Shown here: piece by piece, positions 4,235 through 59,799 of the stretch
Layout: every line of letters begins with the position of its first letter
How positions within the stretch are numbered: position 1 is the stretch's first letter
DNA from: Syncephalis fuscata
Taxonomy: Eukaryota; Zoopagomycota; Zoopagomycetes; Zoopagales; Piptocephalidaceae
Assembly: GCA_025786725.1 (NCBI GenBank)
Contig: JAHLTZ010000024.1
Location: 248,001 to 312,000, forward strand
Reading direction: 5' to 3'
Length of the DNA stretch: 64,000 nucleotides
Position numbers and translations under genes: made by a program
The notes under the pieces: model-generated
Told to the model about the DNA's origin: nothing
Seen by the model: only the letters and a program-made list of their open reading frames with translations
The model's database searches: none

Positions 4235-5686
4235 ATGAAGCCTTTAATCCATACTAGACAGCTACATAGACATACCCCGTTGGTGGGACGACTCTTATAC
4301 CGCCAATACAATGTATTAGCTGTCAAACAAGTAAGTTATTTATTTATTTACTAAATAGTGGTATATTAAACGATGGCTATCCACTTGACTATAGTATGCT
4401 ATGAAGGAGTGTGCACCAGTAAGCTTAAGAGAACTACTGCAATTTGGTCGACCTCCTTTAGATGACGCGTCATTTGTACGGGTGGCTCAATTTGTTCAAA
4501 AAGAACTACCTGTACGTATGGCCAGACGAGTGGTAGCCTTTCAGCGTCTACCATTTATTGTCGGTACCAATCCCTATATCCATCAAGTACATCAACTCTA
4601 TTATGATTCATTTGAAAAGTTACGGGTTCTACCACCAATGGAGAGCCGTGCTGACGATGAAGCATTTACCGGTATGTTACTTGATTTAACAGAAAAACAC
4701 GCCGATGCTATTCCTACACTCGCTCGAGGTCAGTAAACAAAAAACCATGACCATTAATACATTTTGTTATTAATACAGATTTAGGTTTTCTTGAATCAAA
4801 ACAGTATCTTAGTCATTCTGAAGTCAAAGACTTTTTAGATGATATGATTCATGCTCGTATTAGTATTCGTCTTATTGCCGAGCATTATATTGCTTTACAT
4901 CGACAGAATGCCGGCTATATTGGTATTATTGATACACAATTACAGCCTGCTCAGATGCTTGATCGATGCGCCAAATTGTTAAAGGCCTATGTGAGATCAA
5001 TTACGGGTCGGCACCCGAGCATATTTTAGATGGCCAAACGGATATTTCATTCCAATATGTGCCGGTCCACCTTGAATATATTGCCTGTGAACTACTAAAG
5101 AATGCTTATAGAGCGACGGTTGAGCATAGCGAACGTATTGGTCGGGCAGATCATCCGCCTATTCAAATCACCGTAAGTAGAGATGCTAATGATATTGGTA
5201 TCCGTGTACGTGATCAAGGTGGCGGCATTCCTGGTAATCAACTAGCCAATGTATTTGAATATTCATATACTACCGTTGAACCTGATGGGCCAGAAGAGAA
5301 CACAGCCCTTGACAATATATTCACTACACAGACCCGATTAGCCATGCAAGCAGGTGTGGGTGGTCCCATGGGAAGTACATTATAGCATAGGACGCTATTA
5401 ATTATTGATTACTAATTAACCAACTATTTATTTAACTATTTATTTAACTTTTATTAGCTGGATTGGGATTTGGTATGTATTTTATAGATAATTAACCATC
5501 TACATACTTATATCTATCTATCTATTATTTATTTATCTACTTTTATTTATAGGTTTGCCTATGACACTAATCTATGCCAGATATTTTGGTGGCAACCTTA
5601 AACTACTATCATTGCCTAGCTATGGCTGTGATGTCTTTCTTCGACTTAAAAGCATTGATTCTCACTTGGATCAAACTACTATTTAG
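4235..5686 (+). CDS. BCKDK: Branched-chain alpha-ketoacid dehydrogenase kinase, with one frame break
   Basis: Mitochondrial protein kinase of the PDK/BCKDK family that inhibits the branched-chain ketoacid dehydrogenase. Exon 1 (from 4235) encodes a basic targeting peptide. The alpha-helical regulatory domain contains SLRELLQFGRPP, QKELPVRMARRV and LPFIVGTNPYIHQVHQLY, closest in form to BCKDK rather than PDK. The GHKL ATPase domain has the N-box ELLKNAYRA, G1 DQGGGIP and G2 GLGFGLP, followed by YARYFGGNLKL. Between about 4965 and 4985 the frame must change by -1 (one base appears missing near AAATTGTTAAAGG); on either side the sequence matches the family and the residue count between LxP and LCE (13) is exactly that of human BCKDK. 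An assembly deletion is likeliest. Confidence 0.85.
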
Positions 5687-11879: not shown

Positions 11880-13160
11880 TTCTATCTTTTTGCCGAAATT
11901 ACATAGCGAAATAAGCAAGTCACGGTTTGACAATGTCAGCAGTAAGTTTTTGCACATCTGAACGAAGTGACGAGTAAAAAAGTGTTATTTTTGCCATTTA
12001 TTGGCTACGATTGGCATTTTAGCACTCTGTGATTGAAAGCAATTTGGATTAAAGTTTTATATTGTTATTTGGTTAAATAATTATAGATATACGCCATGAT
12101 GTCATTACTAATATGCTTATTGTACATTAGAGTGCAATATGATTAATACGTAGTAAGGATAATAAGTAAGCTTATTAGTAATTTGCACATAATTCTAGTT
12201 TGAATATGACGTAAAATAGTATATCTGATATATTTGAATAGGTAATCGAAATACATTGCAGTTATATTTTTAGATCATATATGAATTACTAGTATTACCA
12301 CATGGATTTATTTAAGTATTAATCCACTTTATTACAACAGATAATAATAACCTTTTAGCACCATTATGCTATTGTCGAATATTTGATATGCTGTTAAATG
12401 AATAAGACGTGTTTTTCTGTTGTTGTCATTTACACTAATATTACTAGTAAAAAACCAGTAGATTACTAAATGTATTATAAAGCATATTCCAGTATTCAAA
12501 CGCTTGTTATGCTTTGTTGCTATTATTATTATCAGTTAATATAGTTATAAACATGGTATATACCTGTTGTTGTTTTGTTAAATTCGGTACTACATTTGAT
12601 TTCAAATTAACATAGTACTAGTTTTTAAACTGCCTTATTAATGCCAAATGGCAGTTACCAATTTATACTAACTTTCTTATATTTAGTATATTTATGCTAT
12701 TATACAATACCTTTGTTAAAACAACTTGTTTACACGGCTGATTCACCAAATCATTTGAACCTACTTGTTTTTCATTATAATAAACATTATCTATAATGCG
12801 CAATGGTATAACGTTATTAGTAAATCAGTAGTAATTTCGTCATTTAAATTATAGGTATGAATATAAATAGAATGTCGATATCTACCAGCATAAAATCACG
12901 CATGAGTCTACACCATGTGGGTTACACAGATTCCAGCTTTTGCTTCAATCAATTGGTTCTCCAAGGCCATTGCCGAACCAAAAGACATTGAAATCGTTAC
13001 TTTACCATTTTCACCTTGTATCCCAGCGTGTGTGTTCGTTTTTCATAATAGTTACAATTGTATCGATCGCTTCAGTATATAGTCTATAAATTAATTACAC
13101 AGTAGAATAGTACAAATTACATATAAAAACACTCTTAATTGCTTTCAAAGACTGCTCAAC
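11880..13160. other. Intergenic, no convincing gene
   Basis: AT-rich. The only coding-like stretch is a minus-strand frame near 13030-12905 (about 42 codons, ending in a stop, no ATG start, no family recognised), which could be a decayed 3' exon. Confidence 0.35.
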
Positions 13161-14051
13161 ATGAGACGGTGTTCTAGTCGTTTAGTTTTGGTTATCGCAA
13201 CCATAATGCTGAGTGTGATGCTCGGTACACTAGATCCTTTTTTTAGGCGTAGTGATACTGCTCTAGTTCATGGTTTGCCACAAGCAACCCCACCTTCTGG
13301 CGCGAATAAAGGATCATCATCGGCACCTCCAACATCTGCGCCACCTCCACCGTCTTCGCCGCCACCAACGTCTTCACCATCTTCATCTTTAGTGCCTTCG
13401 CCGTCCTCGCCACCACCAACATCTTCACCGCCATCGACATCTTCACCGCCTTCAACATCTTCACCACCATCGACATCTTCACCGCCTTCCACGTCTTCAC
13501 CACCTTCGACATCTACTTCCGAGCATGGATCATCATCATCATCATCATCATCTCGTCCACATACAGTTACCGTAACTTCTAAGCCACCAGCTTCAACTAT
13601 ATTCCTGCCACAACCAACTCAAACAATTACAAAGCCCATCACAACTACTGTAACCAGCACGTCTACCGATAAGGAAGGCAACACGCTGACGCTTACAATC
13701 ACTGCTTCGGCAAACGCAGGTGATACCAGTTTTACGGCTTTCAGTACCGATGCATCGGCTCCTACCGCACTAAGTTTAAACCAGTGTAATGCTGGTCAAG
13801 AAACATGCAAGGAGGTTGTTTGCCCCGGGCGTAAGACCAATTTCAAGTGTACTATGTCAATGCAGTGCAGCTGCCTCCAGTCTGCTGATGACGAGTCAAA
13901 CATGGCATTTGGACTGCTGCGCTCTACGCTATTCAATAAGTTGATAGGCGAACATGGTGGTAATTTTGATTACACAATTACCGCAGTTACCTTTATGCTT
14001 GGTGGTGTATTGGCCGCAATGTTGGCGACAGAAGGCGTGCTTTTATCTTAA
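13161..14051 (+). CDS. Ser/Thr/Pro-rich cell-surface protein, possibly GPI-anchored
   Basis: Intronless, 296 residues. A basic N-terminus then a hydrophobic segment (LVLVIATIMLSVMLGTL, about residues 8-25) acts as signal peptide or anchor. Residues about 45-135 are a mucin-like tract built on SSPPST/SPPPTS repeats (13320-13520), followed by poly-Ser and a Thr/Val-rich region (TVTVTSKPP, TITKPITTTVT), expected to be heavily O-mannosylated. A Cys cluster (CNAGQETCKEVVCPGR...CTMSMQCSC) precedes a hydrophobic C-terminus (AVTFMLGGVLAAML) resembling a GPI-attachment or membrane segment. No enzymatic domain seen. Probably a cell-wall or adhesin-like protein; function not determinable. Confidence 0.75.
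   Translation: MRRCSSRLVLVIATIMLSVMLGTLDPFFRRSDTALVHGLPQATPPSGANKGSSSAPPTSAPPPPSSPPPTSSPSSSLVPSPSSPPPTSSPPSTSSPPSTSSPPSTSSPPSTSSPPSTSTSEHGSSSSSSSSRPHTVTVTSKPPASTIFLPQPTQTITKPITTTVTSTSTDKEGNTLTLTITASANAGDTSFTAFSTDASAPTALSLNQCNAGQETCKEVVCPGRKTNFKCTMSMQCSCLQSADDESNMAFGLLRSTLFNKLIGEHGGNFDYTITAVTFMLGGVLAAMLATEGVLLS
13376..13515 (+). repeat. In-frame tandem repeat encoding SSPPST units
   Basis: Imperfect tandem copies of an 18-bp unit (tcttcaccRccWtcRacA) encoding SSPPST, about five near-perfect copies plus diverged ones upstream. Low-complexity repeats of this kind change copy number readily in fungal surface proteins. Confidence 0.7.
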
Positions 14052-28221: not shown

Positions 28222-28342
28222 GTATAGACTGGTCAGGTTGAAGTAAAAATCAAGCAGATTGAAATAAAGACCGGGCAGGTTAAAATCAGGACTGGGCAGG
28301 TTAAAATCAGGACCGAGCAGGTTAAAATCAAGGCTGAGAAGC
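28222..28342. repeat. 21-bp tandem repeat upstream of the six-Cys peptide gene
   Basis: About five to six imperfect copies of a unit like GGGCAGGTTAAAATCAGGACT. The unit is a multiple of 3, so one minus-strand frame reads it as DFNLPGP-like heptads, but no supporting gene structure exists. It begins just after another GACTAGCAACTT block, the same sequence that begins the 26283 and 29315 duplicated segments. Confidence 0.7.
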
Positions 28343-28620: not shown

Positions 28621-28830
28621 ATGAAGCTTTCTATTGCTGTCGTTTGCACCGTCGTTGTGGCTTTGATAGCCGCTACAGCCATGGTGGATGCTAAACCAGA
28701 CTCGGTTCATCATATACCCAAGGATCCTTCTAAATGTGCGGCATGCATTAAGCAATGCAAAGATTTCCCTAAAGCTGATACTAGAGGACGTTGTAATAAG
28801 CATGGCAAATGCAAGATAGCATGCAAATAA
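28621..28830 (+). CDS. Secreted six-cysteine mini-protein
   Basis: Intronless, 69 residues. Signal peptide MKLSIAVVCTVVVALIAATA with MVDA just before the mature part. The mature region (about 44 residues) is Lys-rich with six Cys spaced C-x2-C-x3-C ... C-x5-C-x3-C, compatible with a disulfide-stabilised antimicrobial- or effector-like fold; I do not recognise the family. Start chosen at the in-frame ATG with CACC before it. The leader and promoter are clearly paralogous to the gene at 57177, but the mature regions are unrelated. Confidence 0.8.
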   Translation: MKLSIAVVCTVVVALIAATAMVDAKPDSVHHIPKDPSKCAACIKQCKDFPKADTRGRCNKHGKCKIACK

Positions 28831-31050: not shown

Positions 31051-31679
31051 AGGCAAATGATACAGTTATGATGTCAATTTTATTTGTATAATCCATATAC
31101 ATTCAAAATCTGACTTATTGTAACAAAATGAGCGTTCCATAACCATCAGCCACAGCTCCGCTTTTCCAAATGGCGGTTGAATTACTATCGTTCATAGTAA
31201 AATTTAGTTGCTGTTGCTGCTTTTAATTCTTCTTCTACTTTTGTTTATTTCCCATTTCTTTATTGCCTTTTATTACTTTCTTATATTTAAATTTACGCAA
31301 TAGCTCCGATTAGCATATACAAAATTATACATGCCTTCATAATTAATAAAAAGCATTATCCAGTTCTAAATATTTATTTGCTATTTTACATTACTCAAAT
31401 TTAAGTAATTGCAGTAGTCTTCTATATCTCTTGGTTACAATTACATCTCATTAGCGGATAAATAGTTATGTCATATTTTATTACCTGCATACTAATCCGT
31501 CCATTTTATACTGCGTTTTAAATTATTTGTCTAAATATGGATGATTAACGGCGTTTTAAGCTGTCGCCATAAAAGTTGTTTTCAACATGTTCCATCTTTT
31601 CTTTTTCCTTCTCAAACCTTTAGAAAATTATCTTTGAATAAATACAGTTAAACCAGCGTATTGCTCGTTTTTTACAACA
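30702..31679. other. Intergenic, SOD-B promoter and subtilase upstream region
   Basis: The left 350 bp are the duplicated SOD promoter (a TATA-like TTAAATAT near 30812 on the minus strand). The rest is AT-rich, with no gene seen. Confidence 0.4.
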
Positions 31680-33842
31680 ATGCATTGTCCTGCAGCTATT
31701 TTAACACTACTAGCTTTAGTGTTTCAATCCAATGCAGCACAAAACATTACAGAACAACTTTTAACAGCAACTACCGTACAACATAGCAAAATTGATTCAT
31801 CAGCAGATGTATCAGCCATTTTTGAAAGCCAAACCAATAGAAGATTACATTCCCGTTCTATCCAGCATTTACAACGAAGAGACTCTTCAAGCAATTACAA
31901 AATTAATAACCTTGGCTCCGGTCCGCTTTTACAATATTTACCTACTAAGGAACTAATTAAACCAATGTCACCACATTCTGCCACTGGAGTAAGCAAGATG
32001 CACAGTCAACAAATAACTGGAGAAGGTATAAGGATAGGCATTATAGATAGTGGCGTTGATTATGAACACCCAGCACTTGGTGGTAGATTTTGTCCTACCT
32101 GTAAAGTTGCTCACGGTTACGACTTTGTCGGCGATAGATATGACAATGAGCATCCACCAGTTGAAAGTATATATCCCAAAGATTGCGAAGGGCATGGCAC
32201 ACTAGTAGCAGGTATTATTGGAGCCCAGACGTCCACATTTGTTGGTGTAGCTTATAAAGCTACTCTTGGCGCTTATCGTATATTTGGATGTGGAGATGTG
32301 GCTATTGAGTTCAGCATTTTAAGAAGGGCTCTTGAGAAAGCGCATAATGACAAAATGCACATTGTCAACTTCTCCATTGGTGTGCCTCCAGGTGAATTTG
32401 GATGGGCCATAAATGATTTGATAGAAGAATACAAGGACAAGGGAATGCTTATAGTTGCCGCTGCAGGCAACATTGGCGAAGGCATGGATATGTTGTGGAC
32501 TTCCCAAATACCATCTATCTCTTCACCAGTATTGTCCGTTGGTTCGATGAACATACCTTACAGTTTCGTAAACACTTTTGAAGTTGTTGGTCAAGGCATA
32601 AATCATATACCTTATGTAGATATTTGTACTAGTCATAAACAATCTATTCAATTGATTGATACTACTGTTGCTTCCCCACCAACAAATCAGCAAGTTTGTT
32701 CAGCTACTGGTAGTGTAAAAGGGAAAATGGTTTTAATACCATTTGGTCGCTGCAATGTCGAGCACACTATTGCGCACATGAAAGAACTTGGTGCTGCCGG
32801 CGTCATATTGCCAAATAGCAACACCTATTATAAGCAATGTTCCTTTCCTATTCTTTCTATAAATCTCGAATATGCAACTATTATCGAAAGAATGAGTAGA
32901 AGCAATATAGCTATTACTCTTGGCTTTTATCACTCCAGAATTGAGGTCCCTTCCCCTCAAAGAATGTTTGGTTCTACTTATACAACATGGGGCCCATCGT
33001 TAGATCTCACAATGAATCCAGAAATCATGGCGCCGGGTGACATGATGTTCACTACTGCACATGACGGTGTCAAGTACGCCATTGAACACGGTACATCTTT
33101 TGCAGCGCCCTATGTAGCCGGTGCTGCCGCACTTTATCTACACGCCAAGGCTTTAGAGACTGGCACCATTCCAAAGATTAATTCAGCAAATTTTAAAGCC
33201 ATTCTTCAACGCACCGCAATACCTTATAAAATACCAGGCAGCCTACTGGCTGGATCAGTAGCTCAACAAGGTGCTGGATTAATTCATGTCGATAGAGCTT
33301 TTTCAACTTCGTTTGGCGTATCTCCTTTAGTAGTTGAACTTGGTGCTGAACCGAAAAAACCTCAAGGTCAGCTTATAAAAACAACGAAAATATCCATTCA
33401 AAACACAAACAACGTCCCAAGATCTTTTCTTGTTACTCATTTACCTGCACCTTCCATGTATGGATACATGAGAAACAACAGAACCAGTGATCCTCCAAAA
33501 ACCGTTAATACTCATGCACAAGTTCTATTTCCGGTTACTACGCAAGCGCAACCAGGTCTAAAAGTGCTTTTTACACAGGTTATAGTCCAGAAAATGTCGT
33601 CCGTACAAATACCCGTTGAATTCCATATTCCAGCTACACTTGAATATAAAGATCACTGGGTGTACTCTGGTTACATTGTTGTTGATCCAACTCCTGGTCC
33701 AAATGGTGCTCATTCAGAGCAAGCTATCTACGTTCCATATTTTGGGCTTAATGGTAGTATAGAGGCCATTAATGATTTGTTTGAGTTCGATGATCCTAAC
33801 GCTTCGATTTTTGGTGATGATCCTATGGATGAAACGAATTGA
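31680..33842 (+). CDS. Secreted subtilisin-like serine protease (S8) with PA-domain insert
   Basis: Intronless, 720 residues. Signal peptide MHCPAAILTLLALVFQSNAA and a propeptide to about residue 100. Catalytic triad: Asp about 122 (IGIIDSGVDYEHP), His about 171 (CEGHGTLVAGIIGA), Ser about 473 (HGTSFAAPYVAGAAALYLHA); oxyanion-hole Asn in VAAAGNIGEG. Between His and Ser sits a protease-associated insert (ATGSVKGKMVLIPFGRCNVEH...GAAGVILPNS). The C-terminal 170 residues form a beta-rich Fn3-like domain. All catalytic residues are present, so it is likely an active extracellular protease. Lack of introns contrasts with the intron-rich housekeeping genes. Confidence 0.93.
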   Translation: MHCPAAILTLLALVFQSNAAQNITEQLLTATTVQHSKIDSSADVSAIFESQTNRRLHSRSIQHLQRRDSSSNYKINNLGSGPLLQYLPTKELIKPMSPHSATGVSKMHSQQITGEGIRIGIIDSGVDYEHPALGGRFCPTCKVAHGYDFVGDRYDNEHPPVESIYPKDCEGHGTLVAGIIGAQTSTFVGVAYKATLGAYRIFGCGDVAIEFSILRRALEKAHNDKMHIVNFSIGVPPGEFGWAINDLIEEYKDKGMLIVAAAGNIGEGMDMLWTSQIPSISSPVLSVGSMNIPYSFVNTFEVVGQGINHIPYVDICTSHKQSIQLIDTTVASPPTNQQVCSATGSVKGKMVLIPFGRCNVEHTIAHMKELGAAGVILPNSNTYYKQCSFPILSINLEYATIIERMSRSNIAITLGFYHSRIEVPSPQRMFGSTYTTWGPSLDLTMNPEIMAPGDMMFTTAHDGVKYAIEHGTSFAAPYVAGAAALYLHAKALETGTIPKINSANFKAILQRTAIPYKIPGSLLAGSVAQQGAGLIHVDRAFSTSFGVSPLVVELGAEPKKPQGQLIKTTKISIQNTNNVPRSFLVTHLPAPSMYGYMRNNRTSDPPKTVNTHAQVLFPVTTQAQPGLKVLFTQVIVQKMSSVQIPVEFHIPATLEYKDHWVYSGYIVVDPTPGPNGAHSEQAIYVPYFGLNGSIEAINDLFEFDDPNASIFGDDPMDETN

Positions 33843-57176: not shown

Positions 57177-59190
57177 ATGAAGCTTTCTATTGCCGTTATC
57201 TGCGCCATTATTGGCGCTTTTGTGGCTACTACAGCCATGGTAGATGCTATGCCAACCCATGTCCGTCGTGGTATGCTGAAATCACAATAACTAGCTATCC
57301 ATTTAATCTACTACTGCTTATGTCGCCAATCTAACTTTTCTAGATGGCAAGCAATTTCATATATCAATTAACTATATGCTAATAACATGCCATACACCAC
57401 GTGTATCCAATGACATGTAGCAATAGAACGTGAGGAACAATATATATTAACTAGCTAAATACCAATCATATATCATCCACTGTGTGTATTCAATAAATTG
57501 CATTAATAGTTGGTAAGTGGAACTGTATATTGACCAGCTATATATCAGTCATATGCTATCTATTGTAGATTTAATAGTTGTGTTAATAGAATGTAAGTAA
57601 CATTGCATATCAATCATCATATACGCATCATGCGTCATTCATTACGTGTATTTGATAATTCCTATTAATAGCTCGTAAGTATTATTGTATATCAATGAGC
57701 TATATACTAACCATATGTCATAATTTTGTACTTTTGATAACTTGCACTGATAGTTGGTAAGTTCAGCTATCTATTAGCCAACTACGTATTAATGATATGC
57801 CATTAATTATGTGTATTTAATAACTTGTATTAATAGAGGGTAAGTAGCATTACATATCAACTAGATTCTTTATTAATTGTATGGCATTCGTCGTGCGTAT
57901 TTAATAAATTGCATTGATAGCTCGTAAGTAGTATTGCATTAAGCAACTATGCACTAATCGTATGCTACATGCTGTGTGTATTTAACAATCTGACGCTAAC
58001 AGCTCGTAAGTGGTATTGTATAGCAGTTAGTTATGAGCTAATTAAATACTGTGCGTTATGTGTGCTTGATAACTTATATTAATAGAGGGTAAGTACATTG
58101 TATATTAACCATATACTAAAATATGTTGGACACTGTATTTAACAATTTGTATTAATAGCTAGTAAGTGGCATTGCATATTAATCAGATATATAATAACCA
58201 TACATCATTTATCATGGCACTTGATAATTTATTAATAGAACGTAAGTGACATTTATACTAACTTGTATTCTGTGTATGTTTAATGACTTTTATTAATAGC
58301 TCGTAAGCGACATTATATAGTAATAATTATACATTAATTATATGACATGTAACGTGTTTCCAACAACGTTTACTGATAGTTAGTAAGTGGAGCTTTATAC
58401 CAACTAGCTATGGAATAATCATATGACATGTATCGTGTTTGCTTACTAACTTTTATTGATAGTCAGTGAGTGGCATTGTACATTAACTAGCTATATACCA
58501 ATTATATACATTTACTATATGTATTTAATAACTTGCATTGATAGTTCGTAAGTGACATTATATAGTAATTGACTACATACTACTGATTATGTGCATCTAC
58601 TAAATTACACTAATAGATAGTGGGTGGTATTGTAGATTGACTGGCTATATACTAACCATATGCCATGTACGCTTCGTATTTGATAAATTATATTAATAGC
58701 TAGTAAGTGGTATTTTATATCACCTAAATACATACTGAGTACATGATATACACTATTTGTACTTGATTATTATATTAATAGGACGTAAGTGGCATTGTAT
58801 GCTAATCAGCTACATACTAGACATATGCTATGTACTGTGTTTATTCAATACACGCGTTAATAGAAGGTAGGTGAAATTGTACATTAAATAGCTATGCACT
58901 AATCGTACGCCATGTATCGTATGTGTTTAATGCCTTGTATGAATAGGAAGTAGGTGCCATTTTATATTAACCAATTGCATACTAATCCTATATCATCTAT
59001 CATTTACACTTACTAACTTGCATTAATAGAAGGTACATTGCATCCATATTAATCAATTACATACTAAGCATATGATATACATTGTGCGCGTTTAATAACC
59101 TGTATTAATAGATGGTTAGTTATATTACATATTCCTGCATTATGTGCCAACTATACGACATGTGGTATATCATTTATAACTATAGAATAA
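57177..59190 (+). CDS. Secreted-peptide gene with 23 consecutive 3-nt micro-exons
   Basis: Exon 1 (57177-57270) encodes a signal peptide (MKLSIAVICAIIGAFVATTA, then MVDAMPTHVRR) and ends in phase 1 before GTATGC. Micro-exons of exactly 3 nt start at 57344, 57427, 57510, 57590, 57672, 57754, 57837, 57921, 58003, 58086, 58159, 58239, 58300, 58380, 58463, 58545, 58617, 58700, 58782, 58864, 58947, 59030, 59112; the last exon starts at 59186. The 24 introns are 58-81 nt, homologous to one another, all ending AG, all starting GT except one GC (57347). The spliced frame adds 24 sense codons (Asp-Glu-Leu-Glu ... Gly-Lys-Asp-Glu), then TAA at 59188: 55 residues. The mature part is hydrophilic and Cys-free. 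Function unknown; splicing is predicted, not observed. Confidence 0.7.
57271..59185 (+). repeat. Tandem array of 24 homologous introns
   Basis: Unit consensus about 80 nt: GTAAGTGGCATTGTATAT..., then ACTAGCTATATACTAATCAT, ATGCCATGTA..GTGTATTT, and AATAACTTGCATTAATAG. The TACTAAY block in mid-unit resembles a branch-point sequence. Splice-site ends are conserved whereas the intervening triplets vary freely, the opposite of an ordinary minisatellite. Donors are mostly GTAAGT for the first sixteen micro-exons and weaken over the last seven (GTGGGT, GTAGGT twice, GTACAT, GTTAGT). Confidence 0.85.
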
Positions 59191-59799
59191 TTACTAGTTT
59201 CAAGGAGCTGGTATTGGGTGTGCAATTGGCTGTTAGCTCAATATGATTTAAATATATATTCAGCAAAAAGCAAGACAGCTCGACAATTATGCCGTTTAGT
59301 TCATTCAAGTTTCAAGTTATAACCAGCAATCCGGTTTATTTTCTCTTTAATTAATAATACCATCATATTATTACCTTCTATGATTGGTTATTTCTATCCA
59401 ACTATACAGACATGTAGTAATGAAATATGATTCTATTTAATTATGTACAATCAAACTATTATGAGCATGTTCATATTCTACCTGCATTTGAAATCAGCAA
59501 ATTGCAATCAAGTAAACACGCTAACAGTGTATTTATACAAATATGCTGTATTAGTGTCCAAAGTAGATTGATATTGCTTATAGCATTATTATTATTATTA
59601 TTTAGATTGTGTTATTTAAACACTAACTTATAATCAATAATTGAAAGAGGCTATTTATTGTTTACTTTTTAACAATGTCTGGTTTATGTTGTATTTAGGT
59701 AAGCAGTTATTTTATTTAGTCACTAACGCTTATGAGATACAAGCATGAGCAAAATAGTAGTCATTTAAGCGGGAGTGGTTATAGCACGCATTTTTCTCT
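59191..59799. other. Convergent 3' intergenic region
   Basis: 3' flank of the micro-exon gene and ABCE1; one unremarkable short frame (59427-59633). Nothing else seen. Confidence 0.4.

Follow-up and report, generated by a model that had tools for sequence, protein, structure and literature searches.

The window analysed here, a 64,000-nt stretch of DNA, corresponds to C157:248001–312000 in the 28.95 Mb assembly of Syncephalis fuscata. Its forward strand carries, at 57177–59190, a gene whose first exon (57177..57270, 94 nt) encodes a signal peptide, judged by eye, and a prosegment ending in RR. The open frame of this exon, MKLSIAVICAIIGAFVATTAMVDAMPTHVRR, is followed by the first base of the next codon, leaving the gene in phase 1. 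After a first intron of 73 nt (57271..57343, GTATGC...CTAG), 23 exons of 3 nt each can be read on the same strand, separated by introns of 58–81 nt: ATG (57344..57346, followed by a GC donor, GCAAGC), AAC (57427..57429), TTG (57510..57512), AAT (57590..57592), CTC (57672..57674), TTG (57754..57756), AGG (57837..57839), CTC (57921..57923), CTC (58003..58005), AGG (58086..58088), CTA (58159..58161), AAC (58239..58241), CTC (58300..58302), TTA (58380..58382), TCA (58463..58465), TTC (58545..58547), ATA (58617..58619), CTA (58700..58702), GAC (58782..58784), AAG (58864..58866), GAA (58947..58949), AAG (59030..59032) and ATG (59112..59114). The last intron (59115..59185, 71 nt, GTTAGT...ACTATAG) leads into a last exon (59186..59372, forward strand) whose first two bases finish a GAA codon and are followed by TAA at 59188–59190 and the 3'UTR.

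The earlier note had described this gene as 23 consecutive micro-exons of 3 nt behind a signal-peptide exon, and all 23 triplets are indeed present. Its statement that exactly 3 nt lie between each AG and the next GT is accurate for the spacing in every gap and needs amending for the dinucleotide, as the donor is GT in 22 of 23 cases and GC at the first. The frame that it proposed, from exon 1 in phase 1 through 24 sense codons to TAA, was reproduced. The predicted product, from 94 + 69 coding nt plus the last exon, has 55 amino acids (MKLSIAVICAIIGAFVATTAMVDAMPTHVRR-DELESLEAPQAKPLIIHTRQGKDE-stop), with 24 codons after the RR, and reads ...RRDELESLEAPQAKPLIIHTRQGKDE*. The triplets of this gene taken alone are also open in phase 0, so its freedom from stops is no proof of the frame, which the family supplies. 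ATAGNNNGTRRGT occurs 17 times in the window, each time within the array; 0.68 occurrences were expected, and the largest count in 100 shuffles was 4.

A near-identical second copy of the gene lies at C168:183900–186150 (L066). The two differ by 16 substitutions, none of them outside introns and acceptor regions, and by one 1-base indel in an intron. Exon 1 (0/94), the triplets (0/69), the donors (0/138) and the last exon (0/187) are unchanged, with 3/184 changes in acceptors and 13/1523 in intron interiors. The end of the last exon at 59372 marks where this comparison stops, not a mapped transcript end. Elsewhere in the window, an open frame of 734 codons without a stop (31638–33842) encodes a subtilase (Peptidase_S8), and an 18/54-nt tandem repeat (13332–13514) lies within a long Pro/Ser-rich open frame (13095–14051).

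The window gene belongs to a large set. Genome-wide, the pattern ATTAATAG-NNN-GTAAGT has 3437 matches with at most one mismatch, compared with 50 for the reversed control (1536 + 1901 for ATTAATAGNNNGTAAGT and 22 + 28 for its reverse). When the gap was left free at 0–30 nt, there were 857 + 961 = 1818 exact matches, against 15 + 20 in the reversed control. Only 8 of these have a gap of 0–2 nt (control 3) and 83 a gap of 4–30 nt (control 32), which by subtraction leaves about 1727 of the 1818 at exactly 3 nt. The loci that we fetched hold 38 arrays with 636 junctions. In these loci, the next GTRAGT lies exactly 3 nt beyond 275 of 453 TTAATAG sites; 166 have no GTRAGT within 70 nt, and 12 have a different gap. 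A chain parse with separate scores for acceptors and donors and equal weight on exon lengths of 1–30 nt returned 3 nt for 410 of 413 internal exons, paralogous copies included, the exceptions being one exon each of 2, 6 and 29 nt. The earlier note had held that a spacing other than a multiple of 3 in related genomes would count against its reading; among paralogues of the same genome, this parse bears the reading out. Since the site models of the parser were trained on junctions with 3-nt gaps, we take the genome-wide gap count as the independent check.

The size of the family can be estimated roughly. As 291 of 448 parsed junctions match ATTAATAGNNNGTAAGT with at most one mismatch, the genome would contain about 5,000 one-codon exons (3437/0.65), near-identical copies counted. 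The motif at the exon 1/first-donor boundary, CGNCGTGGTATGTT, has 209 matches with at most one mismatch (reversed control 53) and at least 100 exact ones, although at one locus (L028) a site of this type does not lead into an array. A search for the signal exon gave 150 scored matches out of 292 candidates; in 81 of the 150, the open frame does not exceed 47 amino acids, as in many array genes, while some array genes (for example, L036–L038) have longer frames. Array genes probably number about 100 or more. Many array parses contain gaps of 140–330 nt, which are probably missed or decayed units, and several array peptides are incomplete for that reason. Some arrays may be dead: at position 1501, L026 and L027 have GTA where the start ATG is expected, together with a possible in-frame stop, and are possibly dead copies. 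In two arrays, the same repeat, with a stretch that looks tRNA-like by eye, follows the last parsed unit (after 4495 in L009 and after 3682 in L018) and seems to interrupt them; L009 has a further GCT unit at 5083.

In 456 internal array introns of at most 90 nt, the donor is GTAAGT, with positions +1 to +6 each at 92–100%, and the acceptor is mostly TTAATAG. The ends are GT in 97%, GC in 2% and AG in 100%, the GT/GC and AG being imposed by the parse, which also favoured consensus splice sites and left gaps longer than 90 nt out of the intron set. First introns form a type of their own in this family, most of them beginning GTATGTT, and 6 of 22 contain TACTAAC (counted by eye). TACTAA occurs 141 times in the 456 internal introns, at mixed positions. 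For comparison, the one ordinary intron of S. fuscata that we read by eye, in a kelch gene, runs GTAAGT...TTAATGTAG. The last base of the triplet is G in 30% of cases; since it shows no G bias, coding appears not to be restricted on the exon side of the donor.

Evidence that the triplets are codons comes from the family as a whole. In every array in which the donor of exon 1 was found, this exon measures 94, 97 or 115 nt and leaves one base; in one array (L021), the donor was sought and not found. Across the 38 arrays, phase 1 has no stop in 532 adjacent junction pairs, compared with 21.4 ± 3.75 in shuffles, the count being confined to pairs at most 105 nt apart because a unit might have been missed between wider ones. 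The omitted wider pairs include one stop-forming pair each in L026 and L027, which are duplicates without an ATG, and a single stop in the coarse parse of L015 disappeared once a missed exon was found. The refined parse contains one TGA triplet in L009 and one in L010. Restricting the count to 15 non-duplicate arrays gave 0 stops in 267 pairs against 10.3 expected, and the lowest of 20,000 shuffles had 2. Phase 2, with 44 stops in 532 pairs against 43.7 expected, was ruled out by this rate. In 9 of 10 arrays read, a phase-1 stop lies 0–5 codons inside the last exon; for L015 and L022 the acceptor of that exon is uncertain, and in the remaining array, L009, no last exon could be recognised.

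Base composition points to the same phase. In six intronless bodies, codon positions 1, 2 and 3 have compositions like those of the third, first and second triplet bases, the likeness being clearest at position 3. In the order A/C/G/T, the third base is used at 25/24/30/21% (codon position 1, 35/16/34/15%), the first base at 28/25/30/17% (codon position 2, 31/24/26/19%) and the second base at 18/21/10/51% (codon position 3, 19/29/9/42%). The codon likelihood of the triplets is likewise highest in phase 1. Among the 313 residues read in phase 1, 34 are cysteine; phase 2 gives 13 in 313, and phase 0 a single one in 342. C-x3-C, alone among 15 spacings tested, is in excess in phase 1 (8 against 2.53; p = 0.0013, uncorrected for the 15 spacings). 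One array, L015, spells a stretch, ERLKNLEKQVEEINSHLTVL, that appears heptad-like by eye. Phase 0 also has few stops (1/636, against 13.9 expected with independent columns), which we explain by the rarity of TA and TG at the first two triplet positions, codon positions 2–3 of phase 1. With this rarity allowed for, about 4.5 phase-0 stops would be expected. Phase 0 was rejected since it misfits the exon 1 boundary, has a worse codon fit and yields almost no cysteine.

Chance or a simple satellite as the source of the arrays was ruled out by the stop avoidance, the codon-position composition and the clustering of ATAGNNNGTRRGT. The near back-to-back placement of acceptor and donor recalls the ratchet points of Drosophila (PMC8605326), and each array might accordingly be one long intron removed stepwise, or a non-coding satellite, with the triplets lost from the mRNA. 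Non-coding triplets should not, however, avoid phase-1 stops (0 against 21.4), nor should they resemble codon positions or spell peptides with CxxxC, and joining exon 1 directly to the last exon would remove nearly all of the mature peptide; we regard a non-coding array as very improbable. That the arrays are an assembly artefact or a misread tandem repeat has a negligible chance of being right. Tandem repeats of about 80 nt are hard to assemble, but there are 38 arrays in the fetched loci, the junctions are spread across many contigs, paralogous copies occupy separate loci and the units within 13 arrays differ by 11.5–32.5% on average.

Some members of the family carry their body in one piece. 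About 28 kb from the window array gene, an intronless paralogue at 28621..28830 on the forward strand encodes 69 amino acids, with the same type of signal exon and a six-cysteine mature peptide; its structure prediction is weak (mean pLDDT 58.5), and a 21-nt tandem repeat (28254–28332) lies upstream of it. Its 3'UTR is 85% identical over 280 nt to the last exon of array L010 and weakly similar to that of the window array (score 36; shuffle maximum 31, n = 50), and the 5' flanks of this paralogue and of the window array align over 209 nt with 78.5% identity. With related ends around both forms, an array and a plain frame can fill the same place. At five further loci (L029, L030, L033, L040 and L045), a signal exon of the array kind is followed by an ordinary frame and by a 3'UTR that is related by eye. 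One of these, L029, shares its signal peptide at 1501, a near-identical exon 1 and upstream DNA with L028. In L028, an array-type donor is present with no recognisable array downstream, and L029 has a plain frame instead, as would follow from a swap of the 3' part.

A framework of the C-x-x-C-hydrophobic-x-x-C type is partly common to array and intronless peptides. We compared eight array bodies with 12 intronless bodies, 11 of them distinct (L065 = L074) and two, L071 and L073, incomplete because they extend past the fetched stretch. Two of the eight array bodies, L010 (p = 0.002, 500 shuffles) and L011 (p = 0.024), beat shuffles on the body alone; L016, L050, L048 (p = 0.07), L035 and L015 did not rise above them, nor did the window peptide (p = 0.40). 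Searches that included the signal peptide found intronless paralogues matching past exon 1, for example with 60% identity over residues 1–65 of 65, a figure dominated by the signal peptide. A first-look search for contiguous copies of array bodies produced no candidates, which is a weak negative, and we do not claim that the intronless genes are retrocopies of particular arrays. Together with the absence of in-frame stops in 532 pairs, the codon-position composition and the cysteine spacing, the intronless paralogues uphold the interpretation of the triplets as one-codon exons.

Comparison of 12 paralogue pairs indicates which parts of these genes are constrained. The donors are the most conserved sites (8/1388 changes), followed by exon 1 (11/1131), acceptors (24/1753), intron interiors (424/15512) and triplets (49/656). 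Large indels between paralogues include 79, 82, 83, 244 and 397 nt, sizes near 1, 3 or 5 units, and small indels inside introns are also seen. Within arrays, triplets differ by 35–52% where the flanking introns differ by 4–8% (17 and 144 unit pairs). Over the 12 pairs, the triplets have pN 0.078 and pS 0.039 with an intron value of 0.027 (N versus intron, p = 4e-8; N versus S, p = 0.19). Of 48 triplet changes, 39 sit in the pairs L043/L044, L049/L053 and L032/L047, two of which are low-complexity, and six of the remaining nine pairs have no triplet change. These values are no more than suggestive of diversifying selection on the triplets, and shuffling of near-identical units could mimic it.

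The introns of the arrays are related to one another. In 13 arrays, the mean divergence is 0.235 between neighbours, 0.282 between introns at least 12 units apart and 0.30 between arrays, compared with 0.394 for shuffled sequences; the rise with unit distance fits tandem duplication. This relatedness within and between arrays (0.235–0.30), along with the runs of identical triplets that occur in them, would also be expected if the arrays were of selfish or neutral origin, produced by an introner-like or tandemly duplicating intron unit, with the codon exons being merely what the frame tolerates. Independent insertions are unlikely to fall 3 nt apart and in one phase, which tandem duplication of a unit explains better, and the triplets look coding by their stops, composition and cysteines. 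We consider such an origin unlikely; it concerns how the arrays arose and is compatible with their coding for peptides.

We conclude that these genes very likely encode secreted peptides that would be assembled by splicing, one codon per exon, in a large gene family. The 3-nt quantum, the phase, the coding constraint, the conserved splice sites, the gains and losses of nearly whole units and the intronless paralogues can all be read from the DNA itself. In this architecture, exon 1 would provide the signal peptide and a prosegment; the RR at the end of the latter is a likely Kex2-type cleavage site, where the product would probably be trimmed, and cysteine-rich members are predicted to be disulfide-folded. 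Nearly the whole mature peptide would be encoded by tandem units, each consisting of one codon-length exon and one intron, mostly of 57–90 nt, and the last exon would supply the stop and the 3'UTR. Because all one-codon exons are in phase 1, any number of units keeps the frame. A 3-nt exon has no room for donor and acceptor complexes together, so the introns are probably removed successively and by intron definition. We infer that the spliceosome would remove the units in ordered steps of recursive splicing, each step joining exon 1 to the next triplet, re-creating a donor (NNN|GTAAGT) and leaving one codon behind. The arrays may grow by tandem duplication of the unit, which changes peptide length by whole codons without frameshift and would suit a rapidly evolving set of secreted peptides directed against host fungi or competitors.

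As the exons are symmetric (3 nt, phase 1), every subset of them is in frame, and combinatorial skipping and inclusion could yield many in-frame peptide variants per gene; the micro-exon genes of schistosomes, which have a similar layout, are described as alternatively spliced (PMC10526429). Optional codon exons of this kind are possible, though on balance unlikely, in that the donors are uniformly near consensus (92–100%, a range favoured by the parse) and look constitutive, and the cysteine spacing suits a defined product. More tentatively, and with somewhat less than even confidence, we propose a codon-by-codon architecture in its fullest form, in which up to 20–40 successive recursive splicing steps would contribute one amino acid each, and the peptides would vary by whole codons in evolution through unit duplication and possibly within one cell through codon skipping; this would involve roughly 5,000 one-codon exons at about 100 or more loci.

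The family has so far been found only in S. fuscata. All 8 matches in a protein search with one member and all 11 in a search with a 14-member alignment belong to this species, at the database and sensitivity used. No Pfam family scored above the cut-off for the four members scanned, and the protein database yielded no candidate for the spliced window peptide. In one public model, P0003 (BDF19DRAFT_422765), exon 1 appears to be spliced to the first triplet of L042, after which the frame runs on through the donor and a truncated protein results. The arrays that were checked are absent from the public gene models, and the family may be widely misannotated. Syncephalis, which is placed in Zoopagomycotina, is mycoparasitic (PMC10386755); neither "exon" nor "intron" occurs in the available part of that article. 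The open-licence portion of PubMed Central returned nothing on single-codon exon arrays or fungal micro-exon effectors and nothing on point for Syncephalis gene structure. From the lifestyle and the secreted, variable nature of the peptides, we would guess at a role in contact with host fungi.

If spliced as read here, these would be the most finely cut genes known to us, and the spliceosome would handle thousands of 3-nt exons too short for exon definition. A single organism would then allow direct tests of how small an exon can be and in what order introns are removed. Such genes would also offer a route for protein evolution in which exactly one codon is gained or lost and the frame is never endangered; the family concerned resembles the secreted interaction peptides of a mycoparasite. 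The public models suggest that ordinary gene prediction misses or truncates genes of this kind, and similar arrays may therefore hide in other genomes.

Among known systems, the micro-exon genes (MEGs) of schistosomes share with the S. fuscata arrays a layout of many short symmetric exons behind a signal peptide; they, too, give secreted, variable products in a parasite (PMC10526429). The 35 MEGs described there have exons of 6–81 bp (3–81 in the abstract), mostly 15 bp, and introns of 0.1–5 kb (PMC10526429), whereas 410 of 413 internal exons in S. fuscata are 3 nt, its introns are mostly 57–90 nt and its array genes, in a fungus, probably number about 100 or more. No MEG relative appeared among the protein-search matches, which were confined to S. 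fuscata, and the four members scanned had no Pfam family.

The bicycle genes of aphids differ in that their exons are longer than one codon and the family belongs to insects, whereas the S. fuscata exon is a single codon. They likewise form a large putative-effector family, in which genes average about 17 exons; many of the internal ones are small, nearly all begin at codon position 2, and a conserved relative contains over 100 microexons (PMC9168663). In S. fuscata, exon 1 leaves one base, which puts the start of each triplet at that codon position too. No sequence link to bicycle proteins was present among the protein-search matches, all of which are from S. fuscata.

Introners are related intron sequences that have multiplied in one genome, inserted at scattered gene positions; the S. 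fuscata units differ from them in being tandem, 3 nt apart and confined to one gene family. The ratchet points and RS-exons of Drosophila resemble the arrays in that acceptor and donor are adjacent and splicing re-creates a donor, but ratchet points are features of long introns and as a rule leave no nucleotides behind (PMC8605326). In S. fuscata, there would be 10–40 successive steps at intervals of about 80 nt, with one codon left at each. The polyubiquitin gene UBC has a comparable tandem array of dual-specific acceptor/donor sites, in step with a coding repeat. Its repeat unit is an entire ubiquitin monomer and its site AGGT (PMC10809524), whereas here one codon stands between a separate AG and GT. 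The nearest designs, as far as the available parts of these articles go, are the schistosome MEGs and the aphid bicycle genes, and the nearest mechanism is recursive splicing; single-codon exon arrays are not described in those parts of the MEG, bicycle and recursive-splicing literature. On a stricter view, the S. fuscata arrays could be seen as an extreme variant of the micro-exon gene. What sets them apart is that the exon is quantised at exactly one codon, in well over 1000 exact cases.
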